A stretch of DNA of 64,000 bases. Origin: Cellulomonas fimi. GTDB taxonomy: Bacteria; Actinomycetota; Actinomycetes; Actinomycetales; Cellulomonadaceae. The position numbers and the translations under genes are program-made. The stretch covers positions 682,001-746,000 of the forward strand of contig NZ_CP110680.1 in the NCBI RefSeq assembly GCF_028583725.1, read 5' to 3'. Shown here in pieces: positions 6,991 to 23,681 of the stretch (position 1 is the first letter of the stretch; each line of letters begins with the position of its first letter). The notes beneath the pieces are model-generated. The model ran no database searches and was not told the DNA's origin. It worked only from the letters and a program-made list of their open reading frames with translations.

Positions 6991-7971
6991 TCAGAGGTGG
7001 GTCGCGAACCAGGTCAGGACGCGGCGGTGGTGGACGGCGTCGCCGTTCTCGTGGTGGTTGAACGGGTAGACGGCGATGTCGCGCGGCACGGACGGGTCGC
7101 CGTCGGCCCAGGCGTTGAACGCGGCGAACGCGGTCGACGGCGGGCACACGGTGTCGCGCAGGCCGGTGGCGAAGAGGGCGGCGGCGCGGGCGCGACGGGC
7201 CAGGTGCACGCCGTCGAGGTACGACAGCGTGCGGAAGACGTCGTCCTCGGCTCCACGGTGCACGGCGAGGTAGCGCACGATCTCGGCGTACGGCTCGGTG
7301 TCGACGAGCCCGACGGCCCGCTGCATGTGGCAGAGGAACGGGGCGCTCGCGGCGACCGCGGCGAGGTCGGGCACGAGCCCGGCGACCGCGATCGCGATGC
7401 CGCCGCCCTGGCTGTTGCCGAGCGCGGCGACCCGCGACGCGTCGACGCCGGGCAGCGCGCGCACCGCGTCGACGGCCCGTGCGGCGTCGGTGTAGAGCCG
7501 CCGGTAGTAGGCCGTCCCGGGCGACCGGATGCCGCGGGTGACGAAGCCGGGCGCGGCCGGGTCGGAGCCGACGGGGTCGGGCGTCACGCCGCCGTTGCCG
7601 TGCTGCCCGCCCTGCCCCCGGCTGTCCATGAGCAGGTGCGCGTACCCGGCGTTCGCCCAGGTCAGGCGCTCGATCGGCTCGCCGCGCCCGCGCCCGTACC
7701 CGAGGAACTCCACCACCGCGGGCAGGTCCCCGTCGACGCCCGCGGGACGCGTGTACCAGGCACGGATCGGGTGCCCGCCGAAGCCCGCGAACGTCACGTC
7801 CCACGTGTCGACGAGCGTCAGCCCGGTGTCGACGCGCGTGGCGGTCACCGCGAGGTCGTGCGTGCGCGCCTCGGCGAGCGTCGCGGACCAGAACGCGTCC
7901 AGGTCGTCGGGCTCGGGGAGGTCGGGGCGGTACGTGCGCAGCTCGGCGAGCGGCAGGTCGAACAGGGCCAC
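6991..7971 (-). CDS. axe: Acetyl xylan esterase / cephalosporin-C deacetylase (CE7)
   Basis: A 326-residue carbohydrate esterase family 7 protein that removes acetyl groups from short xylo-oligosaccharides. The family features are present: RGQGG (in LLMDSRGQGGQ), the nucleophile elbow GNSQGG with Ser187, Asp273 in GLRDTVCPPS, and His307 in FNHHENG. No signal peptide, so it acts on imported oligosaccharides, as CE7 enzymes usually do. The gene follows the LacI gene by 63 bp on the same strand and is probably co-transcribed with it. It is divergent from the GH3-ABC-GH42-GH39 operon, which fits de-acetylation before the cytoplasmic glycosidases act. Confidence 0.93.
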   Translation of the reverse strand: MALFDLPLAELRTYRPDLPEPDDLDAFWSATLAEARTHDLAVTATRVDTGLTLVDTWDVTFAGFGGHPIRAWYTRPAGVDGDLPAVVEFLGYGRGRGEPIERLTWANAGYAHLLMDSRGQGGQHGNGGVTPDPVGSDPAAPGFVTRGIRSPGTAYYRRLYTDAARAVDAVRALPGVDASRVAALGNSQGGGIAIAVAGLVPDLAAVAASAPFLCHMQRAVGLVDTEPYAEIVRYLAVHRGAEDDVFRTLSYLDGVHLARRARAAALFATGLRDTVCPPSTAFAAFNAWADGDPSVPRDIAVYPFNHHENGDAVHHRRVLTWFATHL

Positions 7972-8034: not shown

Positions 8035-9114
8035 TCAGACGGTGACGGGCGGCGGCGCGGTGCTCTCGCGCACGACGAGCTCGGTGGCGAGGTCGATGCG
8101 CTGGTTGGTCGGGGTCTCGCCGCGGGCCAGGGCGAGCACGAGGCGGGTCGCGGTCGCGGCCATCTCGTGCAGCGGCTGGTGGACGGTCGTGAGCGCGGGG
8201 CCGAGCCACTCGGTGACGGGCAGGTCGTCGAACCCGACGATCGAGACGTCCTCGGGGACGCGCAGGCCGAGCTCGCGGGCGGCGCGCATGACGCCGAGCG
8301 CCTGGAAGTCGGACCCGGCGAAGATCGCGGTGGGCCGGTCGGGCCGGGACAGCAGCTCGAGCCCGTGCCGGTAGCCGCCGTTGACGAAGAAGTCGCCGTA
8401 GCGGATCAGTGCGGGGTCGGTCGCGATGCCGGCCTCGTCGAGGGCGGACCGGTAACCGTCGATGCGGGCGCGCGAGCACAGCACGTCGACCGGGCCGGAG
8501 ATGACGGCGACGCGGCGGTGGCCGAGCCCGAGCAGGTGCCGCGTCGCGGCGAGGCCGCCGGCCCAGTTGGCGGAGCCGACGACGGGGACGCCGGGCGGCT
8601 GCTCGCCGGCGGTGTCGACGACGACGAAGGGGATCGAGCGGGTCTCGAGCTGGCGGCGCTGCGCGGGGTCGAGGTCGGACAGCACGAGGATGACGCCGCG
8701 CGGGCGGCGCGCGAGCACGTCGTCGAGCCACTCCTGCCGCGGGCGGTGCGCGCCGCCGAGCTCGGACAGGACGACGCCCACGCGCGCGGGGCCGGCGACC
8801 TCCTCGACGCCCTTGATGATCTGCGTGGCCCACGCGGAGTCGAGCTCGTGGAAGACGAGGTCGATGAGCCCGGGGCCGGTCGACGTGCGGCCGCGCCGGC
8901 GGCGGTACTGGTACCGGTCGATGACCTCCTCGACCCGCGCGCGCGTCACCGCGGCGACGTCGGTGCGGCCGTTGAGCACCTTGGAGACGGTGGGCACGGA
9001 CACGCCGGCCTCGGCGGCGATGAGGGCGATCGTCGCCGTCCCGCCCGCGGGCGGCACGGGCTCGTCGACGCCGTCGGTGGTCCCGGACGGCCCTGCGGCA
9101 TCCGTGCTGGTCAT
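8035..9114 (-). CDS. LacI-family transcriptional regulator (xylo-oligosaccharide locus, first)
   Basis: A 359-residue LacI/GalR repressor. After a 27-residue flexible tail comes the helix-turn-helix (TIALIAAEAGVSVPTVSKVL, hinge region with RRRRGRT) and a periplasmic-binding-protein-like effector domain (GLIDLVFHELDSAWA, GHRRVAVISG, SIVGFDDLPVTEWLGP). ATG 9114 is chosen for the GGAAGG site about 8 nt upstream; a start at 9162 would only extend the disordered tail. It is divergent from GH3 and shares the intergenic region holding a LacI-type operator at 9231-9246. It probably represses that operon until a xylo-oligosaccharide binds. The inducer is inferred from context. Confidence 0.92.
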   Translation of the reverse strand: MTSTDAAGPSGTTDGVDEPVPPAGGTATIALIAAEAGVSVPTVSKVLNGRTDVAAVTRARVEEVIDRYQYRRRRGRTSTGPGLIDLVFHELDSAWATQIIKGVEEVAGPARVGVVLSELGGAHRPRQEWLDDVLARRPRGVILVLSDLDPAQRRQLETRSIPFVVVDTAGEQPPGVPVVGSANWAGGLAATRHLLGLGHRRVAVISGPVDVLCSRARIDGYRSALDEAGIATDPALIRYGDFFVNGGYRHGLELLSRPDRPTAIFAGSDFQALGVMRAARELGLRVPEDVSIVGFDDLPVTEWLGPALTTVHQPLHEMAATATRLVLALARGETPTNQRIDLATELVVRESTAPPPVTV

Positions 9115-9218
9115 CCTCGCAACCTTCCCGCGAACCGCAAGTATCGCGTCCGAACGTAGCACCGCGAAGGGCGCATTCCGACGCTCTCCGGCAGGCCGTC
9201 CGGGTGAAGGCCGCGCAT

Positions 9219-9270
9219 CCTGGCAAGTTTTGGCAAACGATTGACACGCCTTGTCGGGAGTGTCTAGTTT
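9219..9270 (+). promoter_or_regulatory. Composite promoter/operator of the GH3-ABC-glycosidase operon
   Basis: Two TGGCAA boxes (9221-9226 and 9231-9236) are spaced one helical turn apart. The second belongs to an imperfect dyad with central CG, TGGCAAACGATTGACA at 9231-9246. The -35 TTGACA (9241-9246) overlaps this dyad; TCTAGT (9263-9268) follows after 16 bp. The same layout is found at 23544-23595 before the ManD-like gene. Repressor binding would block the -35. Confidence 0.7.
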
Positions 9271-9351
9271 CCGAGTCGTTGACCTTTCGCCAACGGTGGC
9301 GATAGTTGCGGACGCTCACGACGACGTGGGCACGGGAGGACGCCGACGACC

Positions 9352-11691
9352 ATGACGGACGCACCGCACGCCCCCTGGCGGGACGCGACCCGCACCCCGG
9401 ACGAGCGCGCCGCCGCCCTCGTGGCGGCCATGACGCTCGACGAGAAGGTGTCGCAGCTGGTCGGGCTCTGGGTCGGCGCCGACGCGTCGGGGGGCGGCGT
9501 CGCCCCGCACCAGGCGGACATGACCGGGGACCTCTCCTGGGCCGACGTCATCGCCGACGGCCTCGGGCAGCTCACGCGCCCGTTCGGCTCGGCGCCCGTG
9601 GACCCGGTCGCCGGCGCCCGCAGCCTCGCGGCGTCGCAGGAGCAGGTCGTCGCCGCCAACCGGTTCGGGATCCCGGCGCTCGTGCACGAGGAGTGCCTCA
9701 CGGGCTTCGCGGCCTGGCGGGCCACCGCGTACCCGGCGCCGCTGTCGTGGGGTGCGACGTTCGACCCGGCGCTCGTCGAGGCCATGGCCGCCCGGATCGG
9801 CGCGAGCATGCGGGCCGCGGGCGTGCACCAGGGCCTCGCACCCGTCCTCGACGTCACGCGCGACTACCGGTGGGGCCGCACGGAGGAGACGATCGGCGAG
9901 GACCCGTACCTCGTCGGTACGGTCGGCACCGCCTACGTGCGCGGGCTGGAGCAGTCCGGCGTCGTCGCGACGCTCAAGCACTTCGCCGGCTACTCGGCCA
10001 GCCGCGCGGGCCGCAACCTCGCGCCGGTCTCGATCGGGCGACGCGAGCTCGCCGACGTGATCCTGCCGCCGTTCGAGATGGCGGTCCGGGACGGCGGCGC
10101 GCGCTCGGTCATGCACTCGTACGCCGAGCTCGACGGCGTCCCGTCGGCCGCCGACGCGTGGCTGCTCACGACGCTGCTGCGCGACACGTGGGGCTTCGAC
10201 GGGACGCTCGTCGCTGACTACTACGGCATCCGCTTCCTGCACACCCTGCACGGGGTCGCCGCCGACGACGGCCACGCCGCCGCGCTGGCGCTGCGCGCGG
10301 GAGTCGACGTCGAGCTGCCGTCCGTGCACTGCTACGGCCGCCCGCTGCGCGACGCCGTGGCCCGTGGCGACGTCGACGAGGCGCTCGTCGACCGCGCACT
10401 GCACCGGGTGCTGCGGCAGAAGGCCGAGCTCGGCCTGCTCGACGAGGGCTGGGAGCCGCTGCCGGCGGACGTCGACACCCTGACGTTCGACGACGCCGAG
10501 AGCCAGGACGTCGCGCTCCGCCTGGCCCGCGAGGCGGTCGTCCTCCTGACCAACCCGCAGGCGGCGCTCCCGATCAGCGCCGGGCAGCGCGTCGCCGTCG
10601 TCGGACCGCTCGCCGACGACCCGTACGCGATGCTCGGCTGCTACTCGTTCCCCGCGCACGTCGGCGTGCACCACCCGGACCACGCGATCGGCCTCGACAT
10701 CCCGACGGTCCTCGACGGCCTGCGCACCGCGGGCGTCACGACGACGACCGCGCGCGGCTGCGACGTCACCGACCCCGACCGCAGCGGGTTCGCCGACGCG
10801 GTCGCGCAGGCCGAGGCCGCCGACGTCGTCGTCGCCGTCGTGGGCGACCGCGCCGGGCTCTTCGGCCGCGGCACGTCGGGCGAGGGCTGCGACGCGACCG
10901 ACCTGCACCTGCCGGGCGTCCAGGCCGACCTCGTCCGCGCGCTGCTCGACACGGGCACGCCCGTCGTGCTCGTCCTGCTCACGGGCCGCCCGTACGCGCT
11001 CGGCGACCTCGCGACCCGCGCGGCGGCCGTCGTGCAGGCGTTCTTCCCCGGGCAGCTCGGCGGTCAGGCGCTCGCCGAGGTGCTGACCGGCGCGACCAAC
11101 CCGTCGGGCCGCCTGCCCGTGAGCCTGCCCGCCGACGCGTCCGGCCAGCCCGGCACGTACCTGTCGCAGCCGCTCGGTCGCCGCACGCAGGTGTCGAACA
11201 TCGACCCGACGCACGCGTTCCCGTTCGGCCACGGGCTGTCGTACACGTCGTTCGACTGGGACGCGCGGCTCGCGACCGGCGACGTGTGGCCGGTCGACGG
11301 CGAGGCCGTCGTCGAGGTCGACGTCGCCAACACCGGTGACGCCGCCGGCGACGACGTCGTGCAGCTCTACCTGCACGACCCGGTCGCCCAGGTGACGCGG
11401 CCCGTCGTGCGCCTCGTCGGGTACGCCCGCGTCGACCTGGCCCCCGGCGAGCGGGCGCGTGTGACGTTCACCGTGCCCGCCGACGTCACCGCGTTCACCG
11501 GCACCGACGGCCGCCGCGTCGTCGAGCCGGGCGACGTCGAGCTGCGGGTCTCGCGCTCGAGCGCCGACCACCACACCACGCTGGCCGCGCGCCTCGACGG
11601 CCCGCTGCGGACCGTCGACCACACCCGCCGCCTCGTCACCGAGGTGGCCGTGCTCACCGGAGCCGACGCACCGGAGGTGGTGACCGCATGA
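9352..11691 (+). CDS. Glycoside hydrolase family 3 beta-glycosidase (probable beta-xylosidase/beta-glucosidase)
   Basis: A 779-residue GH3 enzyme that removes single beta-linked sugars from oligosaccharide ends. The (beta/alpha)8 domain (to about residue 330) contains KHFAGYS and the nucleophile Asp289 in LVADYYGI. The alpha/beta sandwich has FFPGQLGGQALAEVLTG and the likely acid/base Glu511 in GTSGEGCDATDL. A fibronectin III-like domain ends the protein (about 630-779). No signal peptide: cytoplasmic. It is the first gene of an operon whose next start overlaps its stop (ATGA). Xylosidase is favoured by context; glucosidase cannot be excluded. Confidence 0.9.
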   Translation: MTDAPHAPWRDATRTPDERAAALVAAMTLDEKVSQLVGLWVGADASGGGVAPHQADMTGDLSWADVIADGLGQLTRPFGSAPVDPVAGARSLAASQEQVVAANRFGIPALVHEECLTGFAAWRATAYPAPLSWGATFDPALVEAMAARIGASMRAAGVHQGLAPVLDVTRDYRWGRTEETIGEDPYLVGTVGTAYVRGLEQSGVVATLKHFAGYSASRAGRNLAPVSIGRRELADVILPPFEMAVRDGGARSVMHSYAELDGVPSAADAWLLTTLLRDTWGFDGTLVADYYGIRFLHTLHGVAADDGHAAALALRAGVDVELPSVHCYGRPLRDAVARGDVDEALVDRALHRVLRQKAELGLLDEGWEPLPADVDTLTFDDAESQDVALRLAREAVVLLTNPQAALPISAGQRVAVVGPLADDPYAMLGCYSFPAHVGVHHPDHAIGLDIPTVLDGLRTAGVTTTTARGCDVTDPDRSGFADAVAQAEAADVVVAVVGDRAGLFGRGTSGEGCDATDLHLPGVQADLVRALLDTGTPVVLVLLTGRPYALGDLATRAAAVVQAFFPGQLGGQALAEVLTGATNPSGRLPVSLPADASGQPGTYLSQPLGRRTQVSNIDPTHAFPFGHGLSYTSFDWDARLATGDVWPVDGEAVVEVDVANTGDAAGDDVVQLYLHDPVAQVTRPVVRLVGYARVDLAPGERARVTFTVPADVTAFTGTDGRRVVEPGDVELRVSRSSADHHTTLAARLDGPLRTVDHTRRLVTEVAVLTGADAPEVVTA

Positions 11692-12770
11692 GCAGCGTCC
11701 AGGAGCCCGTCGTCGCGGGCGTCGCGACGACCCCGGGCGCGCCGCCGCCCGTCGGGGTCGCCGACAACGCCCCGCCGCCGGCGGGCAGCCCCGCACCCCG
11801 CAAGGCGCGCGGCCCACGCCGCACGCAGACGTTCACGACCCCCGGCGGCACGGTCGTCCGCCCCAGCCGCACGACGTGGCGGCAGGCGCTCAAGCGGGAC
11901 TGGCGGCTGTACTCGTTCCTCGTCCTGCCGCTCGTGTTCCTGCTGGTGTTCCGGTACCTGCCGATCCTCGGCAACGTCGTCGCGTTCCGGCGGTTCCGGC
12001 CCGGGTCGAGCATCTTCGGCGACGAGTGGGTCGGCCTCTACTACGTCCGGATGTTCATCAACGACCAGCAGTTCTGGCACGCGTTCACCAACACGGTCGT
12101 GCTGGGCCTGCTGACGCTCGTCATCGTCTTCCCGCTGCCGATCCTGCTCGCGCTCATGCTCAACGAGGTCCGGTCGCGGCACTTCAAGCGGTCGGTGCAG
12201 ACGATCTCGTACCTGCCGCACTTCATGTCGGTCGTCATCGTCGCGGGCGTGGTGTTCCAGCTCACTTCCGTGAACGGCACGATCAACCAGATCATCACGG
12301 CACTCGGCGGGGACGCGATCACCTTCATGCAGGAGGCGTCGTGGTTCCGGACGATCTACCTGAGCTCCGAGGTCTGGCAGACCGTCGGGTGGGGCACGAT
12401 CCTCTACCTCGCGGCGCTCACGACGATCGACGACCAGCTCTACGAGGCCGCGCGCATCGACGGCGCCAACCGATGGCAGCAGACCTGGCACATCACGCTG
12501 CCGGGGATCCGCCCGACGATGATCGTGCTGCTCATCCTCAACGTCGGCACGTTCATGGCGGTCGGCTTCGAGAAGATCCTGCTGCTGCAGAACCCCCTCA
12601 TCTACTCGACGGCCGACGTCATCTCCACGTACCTGTACCGCGTCGGCATCGTCTCGAACAGCGTCTCCTACGCCACCGCAATCGGCCTGTTCGAGGCGAT
12701 CATCGGCGTGACGCTCGTCCTGTCCGCCAACGCGATCTCGCGCAAGACCGTAGGGGCGAGCCTGTGGTGA
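11688..12770 (+). CDS. ABC sugar transporter permease, LplB type
   Basis: A 360-residue inner-membrane permease of a carbohydrate (CUT1) ABC importer. A 70-residue Pro/Ala-rich cytoplasmic N-terminus precedes six predicted membrane helices, the first being LYSFLVLPLVFLLVFRYL. The EAA loop that contacts the ATPase is EAARIDGANRWQQTWHITLP near residue 255. LplB/YtcP pairs form the aldouronate importer in xylan-using Paenibacillus, which agrees with the glucuronidase nearby. ATG overlaps the GH3 stop; its own stop overlaps the next start (GTGA). Confidence 0.9.
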   Translation: MSSVQEPVVAGVATTPGAPPPVGVADNAPPPAGSPAPRKARGPRRTQTFTTPGGTVVRPSRTTWRQALKRDWRLYSFLVLPLVFLLVFRYLPILGNVVAFRRFRPGSSIFGDEWVGLYYVRMFINDQQFWHAFTNTVVLGLLTLVIVFPLPILLALMLNEVRSRHFKRSVQTISYLPHFMSVVIVAGVVFQLTSVNGTINQIITALGGDAITFMQEASWFRTIYLSSEVWQTVGWGTILYLAALTTIDDQLYEAARIDGANRWQQTWHITLPGIRPTMIVLLILNVGTFMAVGFEKILLLQNPLIYSTADVISTYLYRVGIVSNSVSYATAIGLFEAIIGVTLVLSANAISRKTVGASLW

Positions 12771-13693
12771 CCACCGACCTGTCGAAGCCCGCCGCGGCGG
12801 TGAGCACCAAGCCCCGCGTCGTCCAGGACTCCCGCGCGTACCGGTCCTTCCGGTTCGTCAACGCGGCGCTGCTGATCGTCGTCTGCGCGCTCGTGCTGTA
12901 CCCGTTCGTCAACATCGTCGCGCAGGCGTTCTCGTCCGAGGGCTACATCAACTCGGGGCAGGTGAACCTGATCCCGCGCGGGTTCAACGTCACGACGTTC
13001 GGCGTCGTCATGGGCGACGACATGTTCTGGCGGAACTACCGGAACACCGTCGTCTACACCGTGGTCGCGACGACGATCGCGATGGCGCTCACGACGACGT
13101 ACGCGTACGCGTTGTCGCGGCGGAACCTCAAGGGCCGCAAGTTCTTCATCGGGATCGCGGTCGCGACCATGTTCTTCAACGGCGGGCTCATCCCGAACTA
13201 CGTGCTCATCAGCGAGCTCGGGATGCGCAACACGATCTGGGCGATCGTGCTCCCGAACGCGATCAGCGTGTTCAACCTGCTGGTGATGAAGTCGTTCTTC
13301 GAGAACTTCCCGAGCGAGCTCGAGGAAGCGGCCGCGATCGACGGCATGACGACGTACGGCGTGTTCTTCCGCGTCGTCCTGCCGCTGTCCAAGGCGGTCG
13401 TCGCGACGATGCTGCTGTTCTACGCGGTGTCGTTCTGGAACGCCTGGTTCGCCGCATTCCTCTACATCGACGACCCGAAGCTCTACCCCGTGACGATGTA
13501 CCTGCGGAACCTGCTCGCGGGCGTGACGTCGGGGACGTCGATCCAGGGCGGCTCGACGGACAGCCTCACGCAGATCGCGGCGAACGTGCAGTCCGTGACG
13601 ATGCTCCTCACCGTGCTGCCGATCATCTGCCTCTACCCCTTCATCCAGAGGTACTTCGTGTCGGGCGTGATGCTCGGCGCGGTCAAGCAGTGA
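12767..13693 (+). CDS. ABC sugar transporter permease, YtcP type
   Basis: A 308-residue partner permease of the CUT1 importer. It has about six membrane helices, from LLIVVCALVLYPFVNIVAQA onward, and the EAA loop EEAAAIDGMTTYGVFFRVVL near residue 200. The periplasmic stretch SGTSIQGGSTDSLTQIAANV before the last helix is typical of YtcP-like proteins. GTG 12767 gives a four-base overlap with the LplB-type gene. No ATP-binding subunit is encoded in the operon, so a shared multi-sugar ATPase (MsiK type) elsewhere is expected. Confidence 0.9.
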   Translation: MTTDLSKPAAAVSTKPRVVQDSRAYRSFRFVNAALLIVVCALVLYPFVNIVAQAFSSEGYINSGQVNLIPRGFNVTTFGVVMGDDMFWRNYRNTVVYTVVATTIAMALTTTYAYALSRRNLKGRKFFIGIAVATMFFNGGLIPNYVLISELGMRNTIWAIVLPNAISVFNLLVMKSFFENFPSELEEAAAIDGMTTYGVFFRVVLPLSKAVVATMLLFYAVSFWNAWFAAFLYIDDPKLYPVTMYLRNLLAGVTSGTSIQGGSTDSLTQIAANVQSVTMLLTVLPIICLYPFIQRYFVSGVMLGAVKQ

Positions 13694-13767: not shown

Positions 13768-15435
13768 ATGAGGTCAGCACGAAAGCGCGCAGGCGCCGCG
13801 GCGTCGATCGCGGTCCTCGCCCTCGCCCTGACGGCGGCGTGCTCGTCCGGCGACGGCGCGACGGCCGAGGAGACGGGCGGCGACGCCGGCATCCCGGACG
13901 CGAACCGCGTCGGCGCGATGGAGGACTTCGCGGCCGGCACGGAGTTCGTCGCGACGGAGCCCGTGGAGTTCGGGCTGCTGTACCGCGACCACCCGAACTA
14001 CCCGCTCAACGAGGACTGGCTGTTCTTCTCGGAGATGAAGGACAAGCACAACGTCACGTTCGACATCACGAGCGCGCCGCTGTCCGACTGGGACCAGAAG
14101 AAGTCGCTCATCATCTCGTCGGGCGACGCGCCGGAGTTCATCCCGGTGACGTACAAGGGCCAGGAGACGCAGTTCGTCTCGGGCGGCGCGATCCTGCCGC
14201 TGAGCGACTACGTCGAGTACATGCCGAACTTCCAGCAGAAGATCGAGGAGTGGGGGCTGCAGGACTACCTCGACTCGCTGGAGCAGGCCGACGGCAAGTA
14301 CTACATGCTCCCCGGGCTGTACGAGTCGCCGCAGCCGCAGTACTCGATCGCGGTCCGCAAGGACCTGTGGGACGCGGCAGGCATCACGGAGGACCCGGAG
14401 ACCTGGGACGACTTCCGGGACGCCCTCGAGAAGCTCAAGGCGGCGAACCCGGGCGTGTGGCCGATGTCGGACCGCTGGTCGACGACGAACAACAGCCCGC
14501 TGGGCGCGACGCTCAACATCGCCGCGCCGAACTTCGACACGATCGCCGGCTGGGGCTTCGGCCAGGGTCTGTGGTTCGACGAGGACGAGGAGAAGTTCGT
14601 CTACGCGCCGACGACCGACGGCTACAAGGAGCTCGTCGAGTACTTCGCGAGCCTGGTGGCGGACGGCCTGCTCGACCCCGAGTCGCTGACGCAGGACGAC
14701 GACACCGCGATCCAGAAGTTCGGCTCCGGCCAGTCGCTCGCGATCTCCGGCAACACGCAGGAGATCACGACGTACCGCAAGACGTTCACCGACGCGGGCA
14801 ACACCGCCGCCGACGTCAAGCTCATCCGCGTCCCCGCCGGCCCGGCCGGTGACTACGTCGCCTCGGGCTCGCGCATCGCGTCGGGCTTCATGCTCTCGTC
14901 GGCCGCGAAGGACTCGCCGCACTTCCTCGCGCTGCTGCAGTGGATCGACTGGCTGTACTACTCCGACGAGGGCATCGAGTTCGCGCAGTGGGGCGTCGAG
15001 GGCACGACGTACACGAAGGACGGCGACACCCGCACGCTCGCCGCGGACGTCGACTGGAACGGCCTCAACCCGGCCGGCACCAAGAAGCTCAACGCCGACT
15101 TCGGGTTCAGCAACGGCGTGTTCATGTTCGCGAACGGCACGACCGACGAGCTCATCGGCTCGATGCAGACCGAGACGACCCGGGCGTTCGTCGAGTCGAT
15201 GGCGGACAAGGAGGAGCTGCCGCTCGCGCCGACCGCGCCGCTCGACGAGATGCAGCAGGAGCAGGTCACGCTCTGGCAGTCCGCGCTCAACGACTCGGTG
15301 CTGCAGAACACCGCGGCGTTCATCCTCGGGACGCGCCCGCTCTCGGAGTGGGACGCGTGGATGACCGAGCTCAAGGGCCTCAACGTCGACCAGTACGTCG
15401 AGACCTACAACCAGGCGCTGGCCGCGAAGGGCTGA
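13768..15435 (+). CDS. Extracellular solute-binding lipoprotein of the oligosaccharide importer
   Basis: A 555-residue lipoprotein. The signal peptide ends in the lipobox LTAAC with Cys25; mature residues begin SSGDGAT. The size and the aromatic-rich body (PLNEDWLFFSEMKDKHNVTF, YYMLPGLYESPQPQYS) match LplA/YtcQ-type binding proteins, which carry large oligosaccharides such as aldouronates. It should capture the substrate outside the membrane for the two permeases upstream. The start has a strong AAAAGGAG site at 13756-13763. A stable hairpin follows the stop, which may favour higher amounts of this protein than of downstream enzymes. Confidence 0.92.
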   Translation: MRSARKRAGAAASIAVLALALTAACSSGDGATAEETGGDAGIPDANRVGAMEDFAAGTEFVATEPVEFGLLYRDHPNYPLNEDWLFFSEMKDKHNVTFDITSAPLSDWDQKKSLIISSGDAPEFIPVTYKGQETQFVSGGAILPLSDYVEYMPNFQQKIEEWGLQDYLDSLEQADGKYYMLPGLYESPQPQYSIAVRKDLWDAAGITEDPETWDDFRDALEKLKAANPGVWPMSDRWSTTNNSPLGATLNIAAPNFDTIAGWGFGQGLWFDEDEEKFVYAPTTDGYKELVEYFASLVADGLLDPESLTQDDDTAIQKFGSGQSLAISGNTQEITTYRKTFTDAGNTAADVKLIRVPAGPAGDYVASGSRIASGFMLSSAAKDSPHFLALLQWIDWLYYSDEGIEFAQWGVEGTTYTKDGDTRTLAADVDWNGLNPAGTKKLNADFGFSNGVFMFANGTTDELIGSMQTETTRAFVESMADKEELPLAPTAPLDEMQQEQVTLWQSALNDSVLQNTAAFILGTRPLSEWDAWMTELKGLNVDQYVETYNQALAAKG

Positions 15436-15490: not shown

Positions 15491-15526
15491 CCGTTCCACC
15501 CCTGTGTCCCGGGAGACGTGCCGATC

Positions 15527-17584
15527 GTGAGCAACCAGGTCCGCTACGGCGGCGACTACAACCCCGAGCAGTGGCCGAAGGACGTGTGGGAGGACGACCA
15601 CCGCGCGTTCGACGAGGCCGGCATCACGACGGTCACGGTCGGGGTGTTCGCGTGGGCGCACCTGCAGCCCGCCGAGGACCGGTACGACTTCTCGACGCTC
15701 GACGCGATCGTCGACCGGGCCGCGCAGGCCGGGCGTGAGGTCGTGCTCGCGACGCCGTCGGGGGCGATGCCGCCGTGGCTCGCGCGGGCCTACCCGGACG
15801 CCTGCCGCGTCGACCTCGAGGGCCGCCGGCACGTGTACGGGCAGCGCCACAACCACTGCCCGTCGTCGCCGGACTTCCGCCGGCTCTCGGTGGCGCTCGC
15901 GTCGCAGCTCGCGCAGCGGTACGCGGGCCACCCCGCGGTCGTCGCGTGGCACGTCGGCAACGAGTACGGCGGCGCGTGCTACTGCGACCTGTGTGCGGCG
16001 GGGTTCCGTGACTGGCTGCGCGCGCGGTACGGCACGCTCGACCGGCTCAACGACGCGTGGAACGCGACGTTCTGGTCCCACACGTACACCGACTGGGACG
16101 AGATCCAGCCGCCGACGATGCTGTCCGAGCACTGGCGCGGGCCGAACCACACCGCGTTCCAGGGCACGACGCTCGACTACCGCCGCTTCATGTCGGACGC
16201 GCTGCTCGGCGGGTTCGTCGCGGAGAAGGCCGCGATCCGCGCGCACGACGCGACGACGCCCGTGACGACCAACTTCATGGGCCTCTACCAGCCGGTCGAC
16301 TACCACCGCTGGGCGCCGCACCTCGACCTCGTGACGTGGGACAACTACCCGCCCGCGGACACCCCGCTGCGCACGGCGGCCCGGATGGCGGCGACGCACG
16401 CCGCGATGCGCGGGGTCGGCGGGGGCGCCCCGATCTGGGTCATGGAGCAGACGCCCTCGATCACCGCGTCGCGCGACGTGAACCCGGTGAAGCGGCCCGG
16501 CGTCCTCGCGCTGTGGACCTGGCAGTCCGTCGCGCACGGCGCCGACGCGACGCTCTTCTTCCAGCTCCGCCAGTCGAAGGGCGCGTGCGAGAAGTACCAC
16601 GGCGCCGTGATCGACCACTCGGGGCGGACCGACACGCGCGTGTTCCGCGAGGCGTCGGCCCTGGGTGCGTCGCTCCGCACGGTGGGCGACGGCGTCCTCG
16701 GTGCGCGCACCCCCGCCCGGGTCGCGCTGCTCCTCGACTGGGACTCGTGGTGGGCCGTCGAGATGACCGACGGCTACAACCGGCACGTCTCCTACGTCCA
16801 GACGCTGCTCCAGTACCACCGGGCGCTGTGGTCGGCGAACGCCGCCGTGGACGTCGTACCCGTGACCGCGGACCTGGCGGGGTACGACGTCGTCGTCGCG
16901 CCGCTGCTCCACCTGCTCAAGGGCGACGTCGTCGAGCGGCTCACCGCGTTCGTGCACCGCGGCGGCTCGCTCGTCACCACCTTCTACGGCGGCCGGGTCG
17001 ACGAGGACGACAACGCGTTCCTCGGGGAGCCGCCGCTCGACGCGCTGCTCGGCGTCCGCGTCGAGGAGACCGACTCCGCCGCGCCCGACGTCGCGAACCC
17101 CGTGACGCTGCGCCTCGGCGGTCCCGGCACCGACGGCGCGATCGACTGGAACGGCTCCACGACCCACCCGGCGACGCTCGTCTTCGAGCTCCTCGTCCCG
17201 CACGACGGCACCGAGGTCGTCGGCACGTACGGCGCCGACTTCTACGCGGGCACGCCGGCGGTCACGCGTGCCGCCCGCGGCGAGGGCGCCGCCTGGCACG
17301 TCGGCACCGGCCTCGACGACGACGGGGTCGCACGCGTCCTGCGGCACGTGCTCGACCAGCACGGGCTCATGGGTCCGCACGCCGACGAGCCCGCGCTCGA
17401 GGTCGTCGACCGCGTGCAGCCCGACGGCACCCGGTACCGCTTCGTGCTGCACCATGGAAGCACGCCGCTCACGGTGACGTCCGAGGTGGAGGGCACGGAC
17501 GCCCTCACCGGACGCGTCGTCCGCCGCGGTGACGCCCTGACCCTCGCGCCCGCCGACGTGCTCGTCCTCCAGGAGGCCCCGTGA
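15527..17584 (+). CDS. Glycoside hydrolase family 42 beta-galactosidase
   Basis: A 685-residue GH42 enzyme. It begins with the family hallmark YGGDYNPEQWP. Acid/base Glu146 lies in HVGNEYGGACYC and nucleophile Glu307 in WVMEQTPS. Domain order is TIM barrel (to about 385), trimerisation domain (about 395-600, LLLDWDSWWAVE) and a small C-terminal beta domain. The CYCDLCAAGF segment with clustered Cys resembles the zinc site of some GH42 enzymes. No signal peptide. Here it probably removes beta-galactosyl or alpha-L-arabinopyranosyl decorations of imported oligosaccharides. GTG 15527 is chosen over GTG 15518 because GGGAGA (15511-15516) is correctly spaced only from 15527. Confidence 0.92.
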   Translation: MSNQVRYGGDYNPEQWPKDVWEDDHRAFDEAGITTVTVGVFAWAHLQPAEDRYDFSTLDAIVDRAAQAGREVVLATPSGAMPPWLARAYPDACRVDLEGRRHVYGQRHNHCPSSPDFRRLSVALASQLAQRYAGHPAVVAWHVGNEYGGACYCDLCAAGFRDWLRARYGTLDRLNDAWNATFWSHTYTDWDEIQPPTMLSEHWRGPNHTAFQGTTLDYRRFMSDALLGGFVAEKAAIRAHDATTPVTTNFMGLYQPVDYHRWAPHLDLVTWDNYPPADTPLRTAARMAATHAAMRGVGGGAPIWVMEQTPSITASRDVNPVKRPGVLALWTWQSVAHGADATLFFQLRQSKGACEKYHGAVIDHSGRTDTRVFREASALGASLRTVGDGVLGARTPARVALLLDWDSWWAVEMTDGYNRHVSYVQTLLQYHRALWSANAAVDVVPVTADLAGYDVVVAPLLHLLKGDVVERLTAFVHRGGSLVTTFYGGRVDEDDNAFLGEPPLDALLGVRVEETDSAAPDVANPVTLRLGGPGTDGAIDWNGSTTHPATLVFELLVPHDGTEVVGTYGADFYAGTPAVTRAARGEGAAWHVGTGLDDDGVARVLRHVLDQHGLMGPHADEPALEVVDRVQPDGTRYRFVLHHGSTPLTVTSEVEGTDALTGRVVRRGDALTLAPADVLVLQEAP

Positions 17585-19254
17585 CCCGCGTCGTCGTCCC
17601 CGCCACCCCGCTCGGCCCGCTGTCCGACGCGTGGCGGCACTGTGTCGGCACCGGCCGGCTCAACCTCGCGCTGCGCGCCGACTACCGCGACTCGCTCGCC
17701 CTGGTGCAGCGCGACATCGGGTTCCGGCACGTCCGCGGGCACGGGCTGCTGTCCGACGACGTGGGCGTGCTGCGCCCCTGGTCGATCGGCGACCGGTCCG
17801 GGCTCCGGCACTCCTTCACCTACGTCGACCAGGTGCACGACGCGTTCCTGTCGCTCGGCATCCGCCCGTTCGTCGAGCTCGGCTTCATGCCGTCGGCGCT
17901 CGCGTCGGGGGACCAGACGGTGTTCTGGTGGAAGGGGAACGTGACCCCGCCGGCCTCGCACGCCGACTGGGCGGACCTCGTGACCGCCCTCGTGCGGCAC
18001 CTGGTCGACCGCTACGGCATCGACGAGGTCCGGCAGTGGCCGGTCGAGGTGTGGAACGAGCCGAACCTCCCGCAGTTCTGGAAGGACGCCGACCAGGACG
18101 CGTACCTGCGGCTGTACGAGGTCACGGCGCGCGCGATCAAGGACGTCGACGCCTCGCTGCAGGTCGGCGGTCCGGCCATCTCGCCCGGGGCCGACGAGTG
18201 GTGGCAGCCGTTCGCCGACTTCGTGACGAGCCGCGACGTGCCGTGCGACTTCCTCAGCGTGCACGCCTACGCGTCCGGCCCCGCGCAGCACGTCCCGTTC
18301 GGCAGCTACCAGACGCTCAAGCCGCCGCAGGACCTGCTCGACCAGTTCGCGACCCCGCGCCGCCTGCTCTCCGGCAACCCGCTCGCGGACCTGCCCGTGC
18401 ACGTCACGGAGTTCAACACCTCCTACTGCCCGGACAACCCGATCCACGACACCGCGTACAACGCGGCCTACCTCGCGCCCGTCCTGGTCGGCGGTGGCGA
18501 CCACGTCGACTCGTTCTCCTACTGGACGTTCTGCGACGTGTTCGAGGAGGCGTGGATCCCCACGTCGTTCTTCCACGGCGGGTTCGGGCTGCTCACGCAC
18601 CGGCAGGTGCCCAAGCCGACCTACCACCTGTTCGCGTTCCTGGCCCGCATGGGCCGGCACGTCCTCGCGCGCGGCGACGACCACCTCGTGTGCGCCGACG
18701 ACGACGGGCGCGTCACCGTGCTCGCCTGGCAGCCCGTCGGCGGGAGCGACGGTGCGCCCGCCGACGAGCGGCACGAGCTGCGGCTGTCGGTCCCGGTCGG
18801 CGGCGGTGCGGGTCCCGGGGTCGACGGGGGAGGACCGGCGACGGCGTTCGTCGTGCGCGAGCGCGTCAACGAGCACGAGGGCAACGCCTTCGCCGCGTGG
18901 CGTGAGCTCGGCCGCCCGTTCTCGCCGACCGAACGCCAGGTCGACGTGCTGCGCGACCTCGCCCGCCCGTCGTCGACGCACGCCGCCTACCCGGTCCTCG
19001 ACGGCCGCATCGCGCTCGACCTGTCCCTCGCGCGCCACGAGGTGACGTTCGTCGAGGTCACGCCCGTCGTCGACACGTTCCACGAGGGCCTCGACGACCG
19101 CCGGCTGCTCGGCGTCGCCGACGACCGGCTCGTCGCCGACCCGCCCGGGACGGGCCGCGCGGTCGCGCTGCTCAGCGGGGCGCGCGCCCACGTCGACGCG
19201 GGGGCTCCGGAGCTGCCGACGCCGCGCACGCCCGACGACGGCCCGGCGGAGTGA
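17581..19254 (+). CDS. xynB: Glycoside hydrolase family 39 beta-xylosidase
   Basis: A 557-residue GH39 enzyme that releases xylose from xylo-oligosaccharide non-reducing ends. RGHGLLSDDVGV is the conserved first-strand loop. Acid/base Glu160 is in VEVWNEPNLPQFW and nucleophile Glu277 in VTEFNTSY; these are the same residue numbers as in the well-studied Thermoanaerobacterium enzyme. The C-terminal beta-sandwich runs from about residue 350. No signal peptide. GTG 17581 overlaps the GH42 stop by four bases, and its own stop overlaps the DUF624 start, so the set is translated as a chain. Confidence 0.94.
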   Translation: MTRVVVPATPLGPLSDAWRHCVGTGRLNLALRADYRDSLALVQRDIGFRHVRGHGLLSDDVGVLRPWSIGDRSGLRHSFTYVDQVHDAFLSLGIRPFVELGFMPSALASGDQTVFWWKGNVTPPASHADWADLVTALVRHLVDRYGIDEVRQWPVEVWNEPNLPQFWKDADQDAYLRLYEVTARAIKDVDASLQVGGPAISPGADEWWQPFADFVTSRDVPCDFLSVHAYASGPAQHVPFGSYQTLKPPQDLLDQFATPRRLLSGNPLADLPVHVTEFNTSYCPDNPIHDTAYNAAYLAPVLVGGGDHVDSFSYWTFCDVFEEAWIPTSFFHGGFGLLTHRQVPKPTYHLFAFLARMGRHVLARGDDHLVCADDDGRVTVLAWQPVGGSDGAPADERHELRLSVPVGGGAGPGVDGGGPATAFVVRERVNEHEGNAFAAWRELGRPFSPTERQVDVLRDLARPSSTHAAYPVLDGRIALDLSLARHEVTFVEVTPVVDTFHEGLDDRRLLGVADDRLVADPPGTGRAVALLSGARAHVDAGAPELPTPRTPDDGPAE

Positions 19255-19961
19255 GCGTCGTGAGCGCGGACGCCGAGCGGTTCTCCGAGGTCGGCCGCGG
19301 ACCGTTCTCCCGCGGGTCCGCGGCGGTCTACTGGGCCGTCGTGATCGAGGGGCTCCTGGTGCTCACGTCGTTGCCGACCCTCCTGGCGTTCGTGCTGCTC
19401 GACCGCGCGCCCGGCAACGCGCCGCTGTTCGCGCTCGCGGCCGTGCCGCTCGGACCGTCGCTCGCCGCCGCGGTGTTCGCGTGGCGCGACTGGCTCACGA
19501 CGCCGCCCGGCGACCGCGACCTGTCACCGGCGCGGCACTACTGGCGCGGGTACCGGCTCAACTGGCGCGACGTGCTGCGGTGGTGGGTGCCGACGCTCGT
19601 CGTGCTGACGGTGCTCGCCGTCAACGTCGCGGGCGCCGGAGCGCTGGGCGGGTCCGGCGGGGCTTTCGCGACCGTGTCCCTCGTGGTCGCCGTCGCCGTG
19701 CTCGTGTGGGCGGGGAACGCGCTCGTCCTGTCGTCGCTGTTCGCGTTCCGCACGCGCGACGTCGCCCGGCTGTCCGCGCACTACCTCGCGGCCAAGCCGG
19801 TCAGCGGCCTCGGGGTGCTCGCGCTCGTCGTCGTCGCCGTCGGCATCGCGCTGCTCGCGACCGACTGGCTCCTCGTCCTGCTCGCGTCCCCGCTCGTCGC
19901 CCTCCTGGTCCGCAACGCCACCCCGGTGATCGCCGACGCGACCGCCCGCTTCACCACCTGA
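19251..19961 (+). CDS. DUF624 (YesL-like) membrane protein
   Basis: A 236-residue membrane protein. GPFSRGSAAVYWAVVIEGLL followed by TSLPTLLAFVLL is the start pattern of the DUF624/YesL family, found next to sugar ABC importers and glycosidases in Firmicutes and Actinobacteria. About five to six hydrophobic segments are visible, with a loop containing HYWRGYRLNWRDVLRWW. Its function is unknown; association with oligosaccharide importers suggests an accessory or sensing role. GTG 19251 overlaps the GH39 stop. It is the last gene of the operon. Confidence 0.75.
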   Translation: MSVVSADAERFSEVGRGPFSRGSAAVYWAVVIEGLLVLTSLPTLLAFVLLDRAPGNAPLFALAAVPLGPSLAAAVFAWRDWLTTPPGDRDLSPARHYWRGYRLNWRDVLRWWVPTLVVLTVLAVNVAGAGALGGSGGAFATVSLVVAVAVLVWAGNALVLSSLFAFRTRDVARLSAHYLAAKPVSGLGVLALVVVAVGIALLATDWLLVLLASPLVALLVRNATPVIADATARFTT

Positions 19962-20074: not shown

Positions 20075-22075
20075 TCAGTACACCGTTCGGCCGGTCGCGT
20101 CCGGGATGCCGCTGTGGCGGAAGACGTAGGTGCGGAGCTGGTCGCGCCACTCGTGGGCGCTGCGGACCTGCTCGGCGAGGCGTTCCGCAACGCGTGCGTG
20201 CAGGTCGGCGGGGACCTGACCCGCGATCGCGTCCCACGCGGCGGCGTTCTCGACCGTGCGGGCGGCGCCGTCCCCGTGGGTGTCGTACACGTGCTGAGCG
20301 ACCGAGACGCCGCTGTGCAGCACGTGCGACCACGGCACGTGGTGGAAGAACAGCAGCAGCTCGTCGGGGCACGTCGTGACGTCCTCGTAGACGTCGCGCC
20401 AGGGCGCCGGGAACTGGCCCGTGAACCCCGTACCGGTCGCGCGCGTGCGGTCGACGCCGATGCCGTCGCGGTCGGCGAAGTGGTACGTGCCCCACGGGGT
20501 GTACTCGTAGCCGTCGACGTCCGGGCCGTAGTGGTGCCCGGGCCGGACCATGAAGCCGACGCCGAGCGGGGCGGTGTAGTCCTCGTAGGTCCGCCACGAG
20601 TCGTCGAGGACGCGGTGCAGGGTCTCGCCGACGACGGGGTCGGTGCCCGGGAACGTGAGCCCGATCCACTCGTCGAGCAGCGCTCCGGGGTCCGCGTCGG
20701 GCGACCACGCGAGACGTGCGAACGTGTAGAGGTTCGCCTGCGCGAGCGGGTGGCCGGTCCAGAAGTCGTCGTCGCCGACGTTCGACACGGCGACGAGCCC
20801 GGCGCGGGGCGCGTCGTCGGCCCCGGTCCCGGCCGCGACGTCGGCGACGGTCCGGCCGCCCTCGCCCCACGGGCGGAAGCGCAGGATCTCCGACCACTGC
20901 GGCCCCAGCCAGACGGCGTGCTTCTGCTGACCGGTGTACTCCTGCGTGACCTGGAGCTCGACGGCGAGGCGGGTGTGCGGCATCGCGGCGATCACGGGGG
21001 AGACGGGCTCGCGCGTCTGGAAGTCCATCGGTCCGTACTTCACCTGGAGCACGACGTTGTCGTCGAAGCGCCCGTCGAGCGGCGCGAAGTGGTCGTGCGC
21101 GGCGCGGGCGCGGTCCGTCGAGCGGTCGCGCCAGTCCTGCCGATGGTCGTAGACGAACGCACGCCAGAACACCGTGCCGCCGAACGGCTTGAGCGCCCGG
21201 GCCAGCAGGTTCGCCCCGTCGGCGTGGTCGCGCCCGTACGCGAACGGGCCGGGCTGGCCCTCGGAGTCGGCCTTCACGACGAACCCGCCGAAGTCCGGGA
21301 CCGCGTCGTAGACGTCGGCGACCCGCGCCGCCCACCAGGCCTGCACGTCGGCGTCGAGCGGGTCCGACGTGGGCAGGCCGCCGACCGTCATCGGCGCCGC
21401 GAACGACACCGACAGGTGCACGCGGATGCCGTGCGGGCGGAACAGGGCCGCGAGGCGGGCGACGTCGGGCAGGCCGTCGGTGAGCAGGCGCGCCTCGGTG
21501 CGGTGCACGTTGACGTTGTTGACCGACACGGCGTTGATGCCGACGGACCCGAGCAGCCGCGCGTAGGCGGCGACGCGGGACAGGTCGTCGCGCACACGGC
21601 CGTCGGCGTAGAAGATCGACCCGCCCGCGTAGCCGCGCTCGACCTGCCCCATCACGGGGTGCACGTCGACGTTGTCCCAGTGGTCGAGCATCCGGATCCC
21701 GTTGACCGGCACCACGCGGCGCTCGTCGAGGTCGTCCGCGAAGGCCGCCTCGCCGAGCCGGACGACGTGGTGCAGCCCGTGGAGCAACCCCGCCGGACTA
21801 CCCGCGCGCACGTTCGTGACGGCGTCGTGCCGCCCGACGACGAAGCCGTCGGCGGGTGCGTCGGACGTGAGCGTGAGGGCGAGGTCGCCGGTCGTCGCGT
21901 CCGGTCCGCCGACGAGCGCGCCGCCGAACCGGTGCGTCGCCGCCGTCACCTCGTCGTGCACGGTGCGCAGGACGACGTCGTCCGTGCCAGCGACGTCGAG
22001 GCGGACGCGTCGGCTGCCGAGCGGGCGGAACACCTCGTCGGGCAGCCACATCGGGTGGGCGTCGGTGCTGGTCAC
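20075..22075 (-). CDS. aguA: Alpha-glucuronidase, glycoside hydrolase family 67
   Basis: A 666-residue GH67 enzyme that removes (4-O-methyl-)glucuronic acid from the non-reducing end of aldouronic acids. The family's triad is present with correct spacing: acid Glu272 in KADSEGQPGP, Asp351 in KYGPMDFQ and Glu379 in LQVTQEYTGQ; the last two are 28 apart as in the Geobacillus enzyme. The start region RMLDHWDNVDVHPVMGQVERG is diagnostic. No signal peptide, so substrates must be imported first. It lies 40 bp downstream of the ManD-like gene and converges on the xylosidase operon. Confidence 0.96.
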   Translation of the reverse strand: MTSTDAHPMWLPDEVFRPLGSRRVRLDVAGTDDVVLRTVHDEVTAATHRFGGALVGGPDATTGDLALTLTSDAPADGFVVGRHDAVTNVRAGSPAGLLHGLHHVVRLGEAAFADDLDERRVVPVNGIRMLDHWDNVDVHPVMGQVERGYAGGSIFYADGRVRDDLSRVAAYARLLGSVGINAVSVNNVNVHRTEARLLTDGLPDVARLAALFRPHGIRVHLSVSFAAPMTVGGLPTSDPLDADVQAWWAARVADVYDAVPDFGGFVVKADSEGQPGPFAYGRDHADGANLLARALKPFGGTVFWRAFVYDHRQDWRDRSTDRARAAHDHFAPLDGRFDDNVVLQVKYGPMDFQTREPVSPVIAAMPHTRLAVELQVTQEYTGQQKHAVWLGPQWSEILRFRPWGEGGRTVADVAAGTGADDAPRAGLVAVSNVGDDDFWTGHPLAQANLYTFARLAWSPDADPGALLDEWIGLTFPGTDPVVGETLHRVLDDSWRTYEDYTAPLGVGFMVRPGHHYGPDVDGYEYTPWGTYHFADRDGIGVDRTRATGTGFTGQFPAPWRDVYEDVTTCPDELLLFFHHVPWSHVLHSGVSVAQHVYDTHGDGAARTVENAAAWDAIAGQVPADLHARVAERLAEQVRSAHEWRDQLRTYVFRHSGIPDATGRTVY

Positions 22076-22115: not shown

Positions 22116-23489
22116 TCACCAGTCGTGGACGGTCCCGTCCTTCAGTCGGTTGAACGGCAGGTACGCGGGCTGGTACGCGAAGCGGTCGGCGACCTCGTCG
22201 TCGTAGACGACGCCCAGCCCGGGCTCGTCGCCGGGGTGCAGGAACCCGTCGGTGAACGTGAACGACTGCCGGAACACCTCGTCGGTGCGGCTGCCGTGCT
22301 GCATGTACTCCTGGATGCCGAAGTTGTGGATCGCGAGGTCGAGGTGCAGCGCGGCGGCCATCCCGACGGGGGAGATGTCCGTGGGCCCGTGGATGCCGGA
22401 CTTGATCTGGTACTGCGCGGCGAAGTCGAGGATGCGCCGCAGCGCGGTGATCCCGCCGGTGTGCGTGACGGCGGACCGGACGTAGTCGATGAGCTGCTCG
22501 CGGATGATCCTCTGGTAGTCCCAGACGGTGTTGAACACCTCGCCGATCGCGAGCGGCGTGGTGGTGTGTTGCCGCACGAGCCGCAGCGCCTCCTGGTTCT
22601 CCGCGGGCGTGCAGTCCTCGAGCCAGAACAGGTCGTACGGCTCGAGGTCCTTGCCGAGCCGCGCGGCCTGGATCGGGGTCATGCGGTGGTGGCCGTCGTG
22701 CAGCAGCGGCAGCTCGGGACCGAACTCGTTCCGCACGGCCTCGAACACGCGGGGGACGTGCCGCAGGTACGCGCGCGTGTCCCAGTCCTCCTCGGCCGGC
22801 AGCGGGGCGCGCTGCGCGGGCTCGTAGTCGTACCGGCCGCCGCTGCTCGGCTGCGCCGCGACCCCGTAGACCGCGTCGATGCCGGGCACCGACGTCTGCA
22901 CGCGGATCGAGCGGAAGCCGAGCTCCTGGTGGTGGCGGATCGAGTCGAAGAGCTCGGGCAGGTCGCGGCCCGACGCGTGCCCGTACGCCATGATCCCGGT
23001 CCGGCTCGCGCCGCCCAGCAGCTGGTACAGCGGCATGCCCGCGTAGCGCGCCTTGATGTCCCACAGTGCGACGTCGACCGCCGCGATCGCGGCCATCGTC
23101 ACCGGGCCGCGCCGCCAGTACGCCGACCGGTAGAGGAACTGCCACGTGTCCTCGATGCGGTGCGCGTCGCGGCCGATCAGCAGCGGCACGACGTGGTCCT
23201 GCAGGTAGGAGACGACGGACAGCTCGCGGCCGTTGAGCGTCGCGTCGCCGAGGCCGACGACGCCGTCCTCGGTCGTGAGCCGCAGCGTGACGAAGTTGCG
23301 GTCCGGGCTGCTGACCAGCACCTCCGCGGACCGGATCGCGCTGCCGGACGGCCGGGTCGCCGGCCGGGTCACCGGTCGGGCGCCGTCGGCGGGCGCCGGC
23401 GTCACGTCGCGCGGGTCGGCGGCGCCGGTGGACCGCGTCGGCGGGGCGGCCGGGGCGTCGGTCGTGGGCTCGGGGTGCTGACTCGTCAT
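22116..23489 (-). CDS. manD: Enolase-superfamily sugar-acid dehydratase, D-mannonate dehydratase (ManD) type
   Basis: A 457-residue mandelate-racemase/enolase family protein. Magnesium ligands Asp265, Glu291 and Glu317 ([23 protein letters not shown]) are exactly 26 residues apart, as in characterised ManD. The ManD Arg-Tyr dyad is at Arg196 and Tyr208, 12 apart, and His267 matches the second catalytic His. The C-terminus [11 protein letters not shown] is typical. It would turn D-mannonate (or D-gluconate) into 2-keto-3-deoxygluconate, downstream of glucuronate release by AguA; the isomerase and oxidoreductase between them are not in this window. The first 45 residues are an extra Pro/Thr/Ala-rich tail. 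ATG 23489 has a GGGAGC ribosome site. Confidence 0.88.
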
Positions 23490-23543: not shown

Positions 23544-23595
23544 AGCCTAGACACGGCGACCGGAATGCGGCAATCGCTTGCCAGATATTGCCAGG
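23544..23595 (-). promoter_or_regulatory. Composite promoter/operator of the ManD-like/aguA operon
   Basis: On the minus strand, two TGGCAA boxes a helical turn apart lead into a dyad, GGCAAGCGATTGCC (23569-23582), with 6 of 7 pairs matching and a central CG. TTGCCG (23568-23573) is the -35 and TCTAGG (23546-23551) the -10, with 16 bp between. The first 25 bases match the promoter at 9219 at 21 positions, and GTGTCTAG is identical. It also lies upstream of the divergent LacI gene. Confidence 0.7.
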
Positions 23596-23681
23596 CGCGC
23601 GTCGCGTGGACCAGCATGGACACCACCGCCGGACCCCGGACGACGACGACCGGCCGCCGCGCGGACGAGAGGAGACCCCCG

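Follow-up and report, generated by a model that had tools for sequence, protein, structure and literature searches.

The window analysed here is a stretch of 64,000 nucleotides from Cellulomonas fimi (positions 682,001-746,000 of a genome of 4,486,221 bp in one contig, all of which was searched). Two LacI-family genes lie in this part of the window, each divergent to genes for sugar breakdown: lacI-A faces an operon led by a GH3 gene, and lacI-B faces the ManD-GH67 genes (Table 1). The sugar setting first proposed for both operons is supported, and we read it as that of glucuronoxylan. A domain scan of LacI-B, run on the in-frame stretch 23547-24700, found an N-terminal LacI helix-turn-helix followed by a periplasmic-binding-protein-like domain. 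LacI-B is 44% identical to a paralogue encoded elsewhere in the genome, LacI-C, and 29% identical to LacI-A; its relatives include proteins of C. septica (99% identity over residues 1-214) and C. biazotea (86%). A further LacI paralogue lies to the left of the window (genome 673,582-674,502; L318:5582-6502), divergent to a second UxaC gene and near Mannitol_dh and PfkB genes (genome about 671.8-678.1 kb). Its intergenic region contains AATCGATT/TTCGATT-like elements, not TGGCAA.

Table 1. Genes, promoter elements and predicted operators. Positions are those of the window unless a locus (L315, L316) is named.
Feature	Position	Strand	Remarks
AXE1 acetyl xylan esterase	6991..7971	-	downstream of lacI-A
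LacI-A, LacI-family regulator	8035..9114	-	predicted xylan regulator; Pfam PF00356/PF13377
Predicted LacI-A operator CGCAAGTATCG	9136..9146	+	near lacI-A
Site A third half-site (H1) TGGCAA	9221..9226	+	promoter-distal
Site A LacI-type palindrome TGGCAAACGATTGACA	9231..9246	+	H2 9231-9236; H3 9241-9246
Site A -35 box TTGACA	9241-9246	+	same bases as H3
Site A -10 box TAGTTT	9265-9270	+	GH3 operon promoter; 18 bp past -35
Predicted LacI-A operator CGCAACTATCG	9300..9310	-	between -10 and GH3
GH3 beta-xylosidase/alpha-L-arabinosidase	9352..11691	+	first in operon A; NF052329 above cut-off
ABC sugar permease	11688..12770	+	
ABC sugar permease	12812..13693	+	
ABC solute-binding protein	13768..15435	+	
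GH42	15518..17584	+	
GH39	17581..19254	+	
DUF624 protein	19251..19961	+	
GH67 alpha-glucuronidase (aguA)	20075..22075	-	
D-mannonate dehydratase ManD	22116..23489	-	NF043051 above cut-off
Site B -10 box TAGGCT	23544-23549	-	ManD-GH67 promoter
Site B palindrome TGGCAAGCGATTGCCG	23568..23583	-	
Site B -35 box TTGCCG	23573-23568	-	same bases as H3
Site B third half-site (H1) TGGCAA	23588..23593	-	
LacI-B, LacI-family regulator	23682..24707	+	hinge GRAL; predicted binder of sites A and B; PF00356, PF13377 above gathering
CGMAASTWTCG at xylanase loci	L315:7625 and 7756		
CGMAASTWTCG at xylanase loci	L315:14438 and 14582		
CGMAASTWTCG at xylanase loci	L316:5528		

The 52 bp before GH3 (9219-9270, forward strand) and the 52 bp before ManD-GH67 (23595-23544, reverse strand) align without gaps and share 34 bases, 21 of them among the first 25, in agreement with the count in the first-pass annotation. 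When both intergenic regions were shuffled 1000 times with dinucleotides preserved, the best ungapped 52-mer had at most 32 identities (mean 27.3); together with the genome-wide pattern counts, this rules out a chance likeness of sites A and B. The pattern TGGCAA-N4-TGGCAA-N-CGATTG is indeed present at both places and has no other exact copy in the genome. Searched as TGGCAANNNNTGGCAANCGATTG with up to 3 mismatches, it gave 2 matches in the window, sites A and B with 0 mismatches each (shuffle mean 0.00, n=100). The first-pass annotation had allowed for many hits in unrelated places, and a search of the whole genome added just two, one with 2 mismatches and one with 3, against 0 for the reversed pattern as control. 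The proposal that a single operator/promoter module stands before both operons and faces its targets in the same way is supported, and the module is conserved in orthologs.

Outside the specified operator bases, sites A and B agree at only 16 of 34 positions, and in the spacer (positions 27-43) at 6 of 17, so the likeness resides mostly in the operator and the -10 box. The promoter itself has to be redrawn. A 16-bp distance between the -35 and -10 boxes had been given for both copies; we prefer 18 bp (TTGACA/TTGCCG to TAGTTT/TAGGCT), because related promoters favour TANNNT at that distance downstream of the same half-site. Among 77 related sites it was found at 18 bp in 14, 17 bp in 2, 16 bp in 1 and 10 bp in 1, and at none of the remaining spacings between 8 and 59 bp.

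The element had been described as a single motif, and it resolves instead into a palindrome overlapping the -35 box and an extra half-site 10 bp upstream. At both sites TGGCAANCGNTTGNCN forms an even palindrome with a central CG that overlaps the -35 box. Its core, TGGCAANCGNTTGNC, reads as a CG-centred LacI palindrome of two half-sites (H2 and H3), the downstream of which coincides with the -35 box. Exact copies of this core occur at four places in the genome, all of them glucuronoxylan loci: before the GH3/ABC operon (site A), before ManD-GH67 (site B), before a uxuB-like gene and a second ManD gene, and before uidA-GPH-gnd-uxaC. The last two flank the LacI-C gene on either side (genome 1,658.6-1,659.7 kb). 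On the uxuB side, the first gene encodes a protein whose best family match is fructuronate reductase, at a score below the NCBIfam cut-off; on the other side are genes for beta-glucuronidase, a glucuronide transporter, phosphogluconate dehydrogenase and glucuronate isomerase. Operators thus precede uxaC, uxuB-like, ManD and uidA genes, as in a hexuronate regulon, and the genes at the four core sites place the breakdown of glucuronate and mannonate, together with the xylo-oligosaccharide operon, in one predicted regulon. The first-pass annotation had looked to xylanase, uxaC, uxuB and xylAB genes for further copies; exact cores do precede the uxuB-like and uxaC operons, but xylanase genes bear a different motif (see below) and xylAB is not among the annotated genes at the four loci.

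The 15-base core with its two half-sites is by itself a weak signal. With up to 1 mismatch it gave 8 matches in this genome, against 13 for the reversed control; with 0 mismatches there were 5 strand matches against 1. Over 200 genomes of the family it was enriched within the genus (70 matches vs 27 for the control) and not in the family outside the genus (72 vs 69). It is the third half-site that sets real sites above chance. One single-mismatch core, at genome position 3,272,382 (L014), lies between two divergent unidentified ORFs and is followed by an AT-rich stretch with TTGACTTACTTTATTCAG. By eye it looks like the site of another regulator, and the core match there is probably fortuitous.

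At each of the four core sites a half-site in direct orientation (TGGCAA or GACAA) lies 10 bp upstream; we call it H1. Among 98 sites, namely the distinct cores in the stretches retrieved for part of the family matches, TTG[CT]C stood exactly four bases from the palindrome on 46 flanks and on at most 4 flanks at each of 33 other offsets. After clustering of similar flanks, 74 sites were left, with 31 at N4 and again at most 4 at any other offset. These operators accordingly consist of more than the two half-sites of a CG-centred palindrome. The tripartite pattern RNCAANNNNTGGCAANCGNTTGNC gave 41 matches in 30 of 396 genomes of the order, distributed over 18 genera and 10 families (reversed control 0), and a stricter form, GGCAANNNNTGGCAANCGNTTGNC, was found in 1 of 385 genomes sampled from the phylum outside the order. 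The fetched loci contained 77 distinct tripartite sites, 54 of them with a relative of LacI-A, LacI-B or LacI-C in the same stretch. Forty-four could be scored for orientation, having the start of a panel target gene within 300 bp on one side only (the other 33 had no such gene), and H1 was on the side far from the target at 43 of these and on the near side at 1 (L218).

The third half-site also follows the regulator. We surveyed 80 named loci of LacI-B relatives with flanks of up to 5 kb, using a slightly looser form of the tripartite pattern (reversed control 0/80). It was present at 6 of 12 loci where the relative was at least 60% identical to LacI-B, at 9 of 27 with 40-59% identity and at none of 41 below 40%. 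Since this amounts to 15 of 39 loci at 40% identity or more against 0 of 41 below, the third half-site goes with the LacI-B subgroup. Within the genus, H1 was seen by eye at 19 of 28 LacI-B ortholog loci. The nine loci without H1 at site B belong to the same nine genomes that are without it at site A, so in these related genomes it is dispensable.

Several variants were recorded during this comparison. In the nine genomes without H1 (L034-L037, L039-L043), sites A and B depart jointly from those of the other groups: the operator lies inside the -35/-10 spacer, as judged by eye, and the best match adjoining lacI-A is a permease gene rather than GH3. At site A, GGCAA is kept in three orthologous loci (G013, G008 and G050), while the N4 that follows it is altered in G008 and G050; in six other genomes (G030, G022, G052, G055, G018, G024) the best strand is reversed and there is no third half-site at N4. 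One operator (L217; G425:C1 about 3,211,091-3,211,124) is symmetrical, with four half-sites, N4 half-sites being present on both sides of the palindrome. By eye, six loci (L204, L208, L213-L216) have extra TTGCC/TTGCA-type half-sites inside the promoter spacer, 10-12 bp (start to start) downstream of the second half of the palindrome. The TGGGAGCGCTCCCA operator was matched in 3 of 60 genomes, too few for a comparison of third half-sites.

LacI-A is associated with a different conserved element. Upstream of lacI-A orthologs we found CGMAASTWTCG, present with at most 1 mismatch beside 34 of 37 of them and in two copies in 22. The C. fimi genome has eight exact matches (control 0): two flank site A, two pairs are at two GH10 genes, a GH11 gene has one at its start, and another lies just before a GH10-CBM2 gene. 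Judged by ORF start, the element falls in the first codons of the two GH10 genes and the GH11 gene, and the second copies at the two GH10 genes lie 131 and 144 bp upstream. The protein also differs in its hinge and recognition helix: LacI-A has the hinge YRRRRGR and a Lys at the position of the recognition-helix Arg, and at the 29 of 30 ortholog loci that could be read the hinge is of the RRRR type without A-x-L and the recognition helix likewise has Lys. By contrast, the hinge is GRAL or ARAL with the recognition-helix Arg at 28 of 28 LacI-B ortholog loci, and ARAL or AQAL with Arg at 13 of 18 LacI-C loci, the other 5 being unreadable. In the part of PMC2329647 consulted, loss of the hinge Leu is tied to loss of the central CG in operators. 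LacI-A lacks the A-x-L hinge, which in binders of CG-centred operators intercalates at the central CG.

The distribution of site A was scored as a core with at least 10 of 12 bases beside lacI-A at 37 lacI-A loci. Where LacI-B accompanies a divergent GH3 or permease operon, 20 of 24 genomes had such a core; it was present in 0 of 6 with the operon and no LacI-B, in 0 of 2 with LacI-B where no operon was found, and in 0 of 5 with neither. The four genomes with LacI-B and the GH3 operon that have no good site A are G051, G020, G011 and G006. As the genomes share ancestry, and the six with the operon and no LacI-B look like one clade, these counts represent fewer independent events than their number. 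Based on the LacI-A motif, the hinge and the co-occurrence with LacI-B, we assign site A to LacI-B or LacI-C as its most likely owner and not to LacI-A, although the sequence does not separate LacI-B from LacI-C as the binder. LacI-A itself is most likely a xylan repressor with CGMAASTWTCG as its own operator. BxlR is a xylan regulator of actinobacteria, and LacI-A resembles it as a LacI-family protein encoded beside a GH3 xylosidase and an ABC transporter. Here it is the other regulator, to which sites A and B probably do not belong.

Taken together, we consider it likely that sites A and B are two of four operator copies for LacI-B, a repressor of the hexuronate type, joined by its paralogue LacI-C, which is encoded at the uidA/uxuB-like locus, and that the GH3 operon is under glucuronate control in addition to control by LacI-A. 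The arrangement of the genes invites a simpler reading, in which each LacI protein binds the adjoining copy (LacI-A at site A, LacI-B at site B) and the operators have converged. Each lacI gene is in fact divergent to one site, as the first-pass annotation had noted, and LacI-family regulators often act as local autoregulators (72% of those studied, in the portion of PMC4052901 consulted). We nevertheless regard this as unlikely, given the CGMAASTWTCG element at nearly all lacI-A promoters, the hinge of LacI-A and the fact that the 11 of 37 genomes without LacI-B have no good TGGCAA core beside lacI-A. The same three observations led us to disfavour LacI-A as owner of site A. A recent duplication of the promoter region, with no regulator in common, would account for the shared orientation and the ungapped 52-bp match, but it is very improbable: the spacer has drifted while the operator bases and the -10 box were kept, orthologous loci have both sites too, the genome has copies at two more places, and the tripartite pattern extends to 10 families of the order.

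Two other explanations concern H1. Some activators typically bind direct repeats spaced by one turn upstream of the -35 box, and H1 could be read by another factor recognizing the 10-bp direct repeat, such as an activator touching RNA polymerase from about -55. The promoter-distal position of H1 at nearly all scorable sites fits such a factor. We find this rather unlikely, as the sequence of H1 is that of a LacI half-site and the tripartite pattern tracks close relatives of LacI-B over the 80 loci surveyed. H1 might also serve only the divergent lacI promoter, whose -35 box would be H2 read in reverse: at 15 of 77 sites there is a TANNNT 17-18 bp away from reversed H2, and the spacer so formed contains H1. 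This is improbable, because H1 is kept where the lacI gene is codirectional, both at the uxuB-side site next to LacI-C (11 of 12 close LacI-C loci, by eye) and at uxaC operons (L134, L138, L204, L209, L210, L212, L221), and because no TAnnnT was seen by eye after reversed H2 at site A or site B. Finally, H1 and H2 are unlikely to form a canonical second operator, since few of the N4 spacers between them have a central CG (by eye), as a normal second dimer site would.

LacI-family operators are textbook palindromes. In the sections of PMC4052901 consulted, the motifs of the family are described as palindromes that are nearly all even with a central CG. Sites A and B resemble CcpA-like operators, as presented in the parts of PMC4052901 and PMC2329647 consulted, in their 16-bp even palindrome with a central CG, their position upstream of sugar genes and their overlap with the promoter, but differ from them in having a third, directly oriented half-site whose distance is constant at N4 (10-bp period). 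Neither paper uses the words "half-site" or "direct repeat" anywhere in its main text. For CytR of E. coli, another member of the LacI family, half-sites in direct repeat are described, with variable spacing, a weak motif and CRP partner sites (consulted part of PMC3454398) and, from a title cited there, a flexible linker. Unlike CytR, the sites studied here have a fixed spacing, the palindrome is intact and the direct half-site comes in addition to it, and the hinge motif of LacI-B and LacI-C is ordinary. In its targets, glucuronate and mannonate catabolism, the regulon is similar to those of the LacI-type hexuronate regulators UxuR, UxaR, ExuR and KdgR listed in the part of PMC4052901 consulted; these are from Bacteroides or of unstated lineage, whereas the present regulon belongs to Cellulomonas and its relatives and reaches a beta-xylosidase operon. 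We found no description of a fixed third half-site added to a LacI palindrome in the parts of the open-licence literature consulted, and within these it is a variant not previously described.

In the mechanism that we propose for LacI-B and LacI-C, a repressor dimer would sit on the CG-centred palindrome TGGCAANCGNTTGNCA and, as the downstream half of the palindrome is the -35 box, would exclude RNA polymerase from the promoter until a ligand, presumably a uronate or aldouronate, releases it. The third half-site, direct and exactly 10 bp (one turn) upstream, would be part of the operator. Because TGGCAA matches TTGCCA in four of its six bases, H1/H2 could act as a second register that keeps the dimer near the promoter, and raising local occupancy in this way is the role that we think most likely for H1. 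A bistable form of this idea, in which the dimer sits either on H2/H3, covering the -35 box, or one turn upstream on H1/H2, is rather doubtful. If it were true, the dimer would wait next to the open promoter, from where it could repress again or contact RNA polymerase, and the operator would be a built-in sliding switch of a kind not described for LacI-family operators in the portions of the literature consulted. Site A would add glucuronate control by LacI-B or LacI-C to the operon of the GH3 beta-xylosidase and ABC transporter, while LacI-A, responding to xylan fragments, would use the pair of CGMAASTWTCG elements on either side of site A, giving control by two inputs.

A third half-site fixed at a distance of one helical turn and recurring in ten families of the order suggests a mode of binding, or a promoter logic, that would escape motif searches for palindromes. 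The GH3 operon offers a testable case in which a sugar operon may respond both to xylan and to glucuronate, each through a LacI paralogue with an operator of its own, and it bears on how Cellulomonas breaks down glucuronoxylan.
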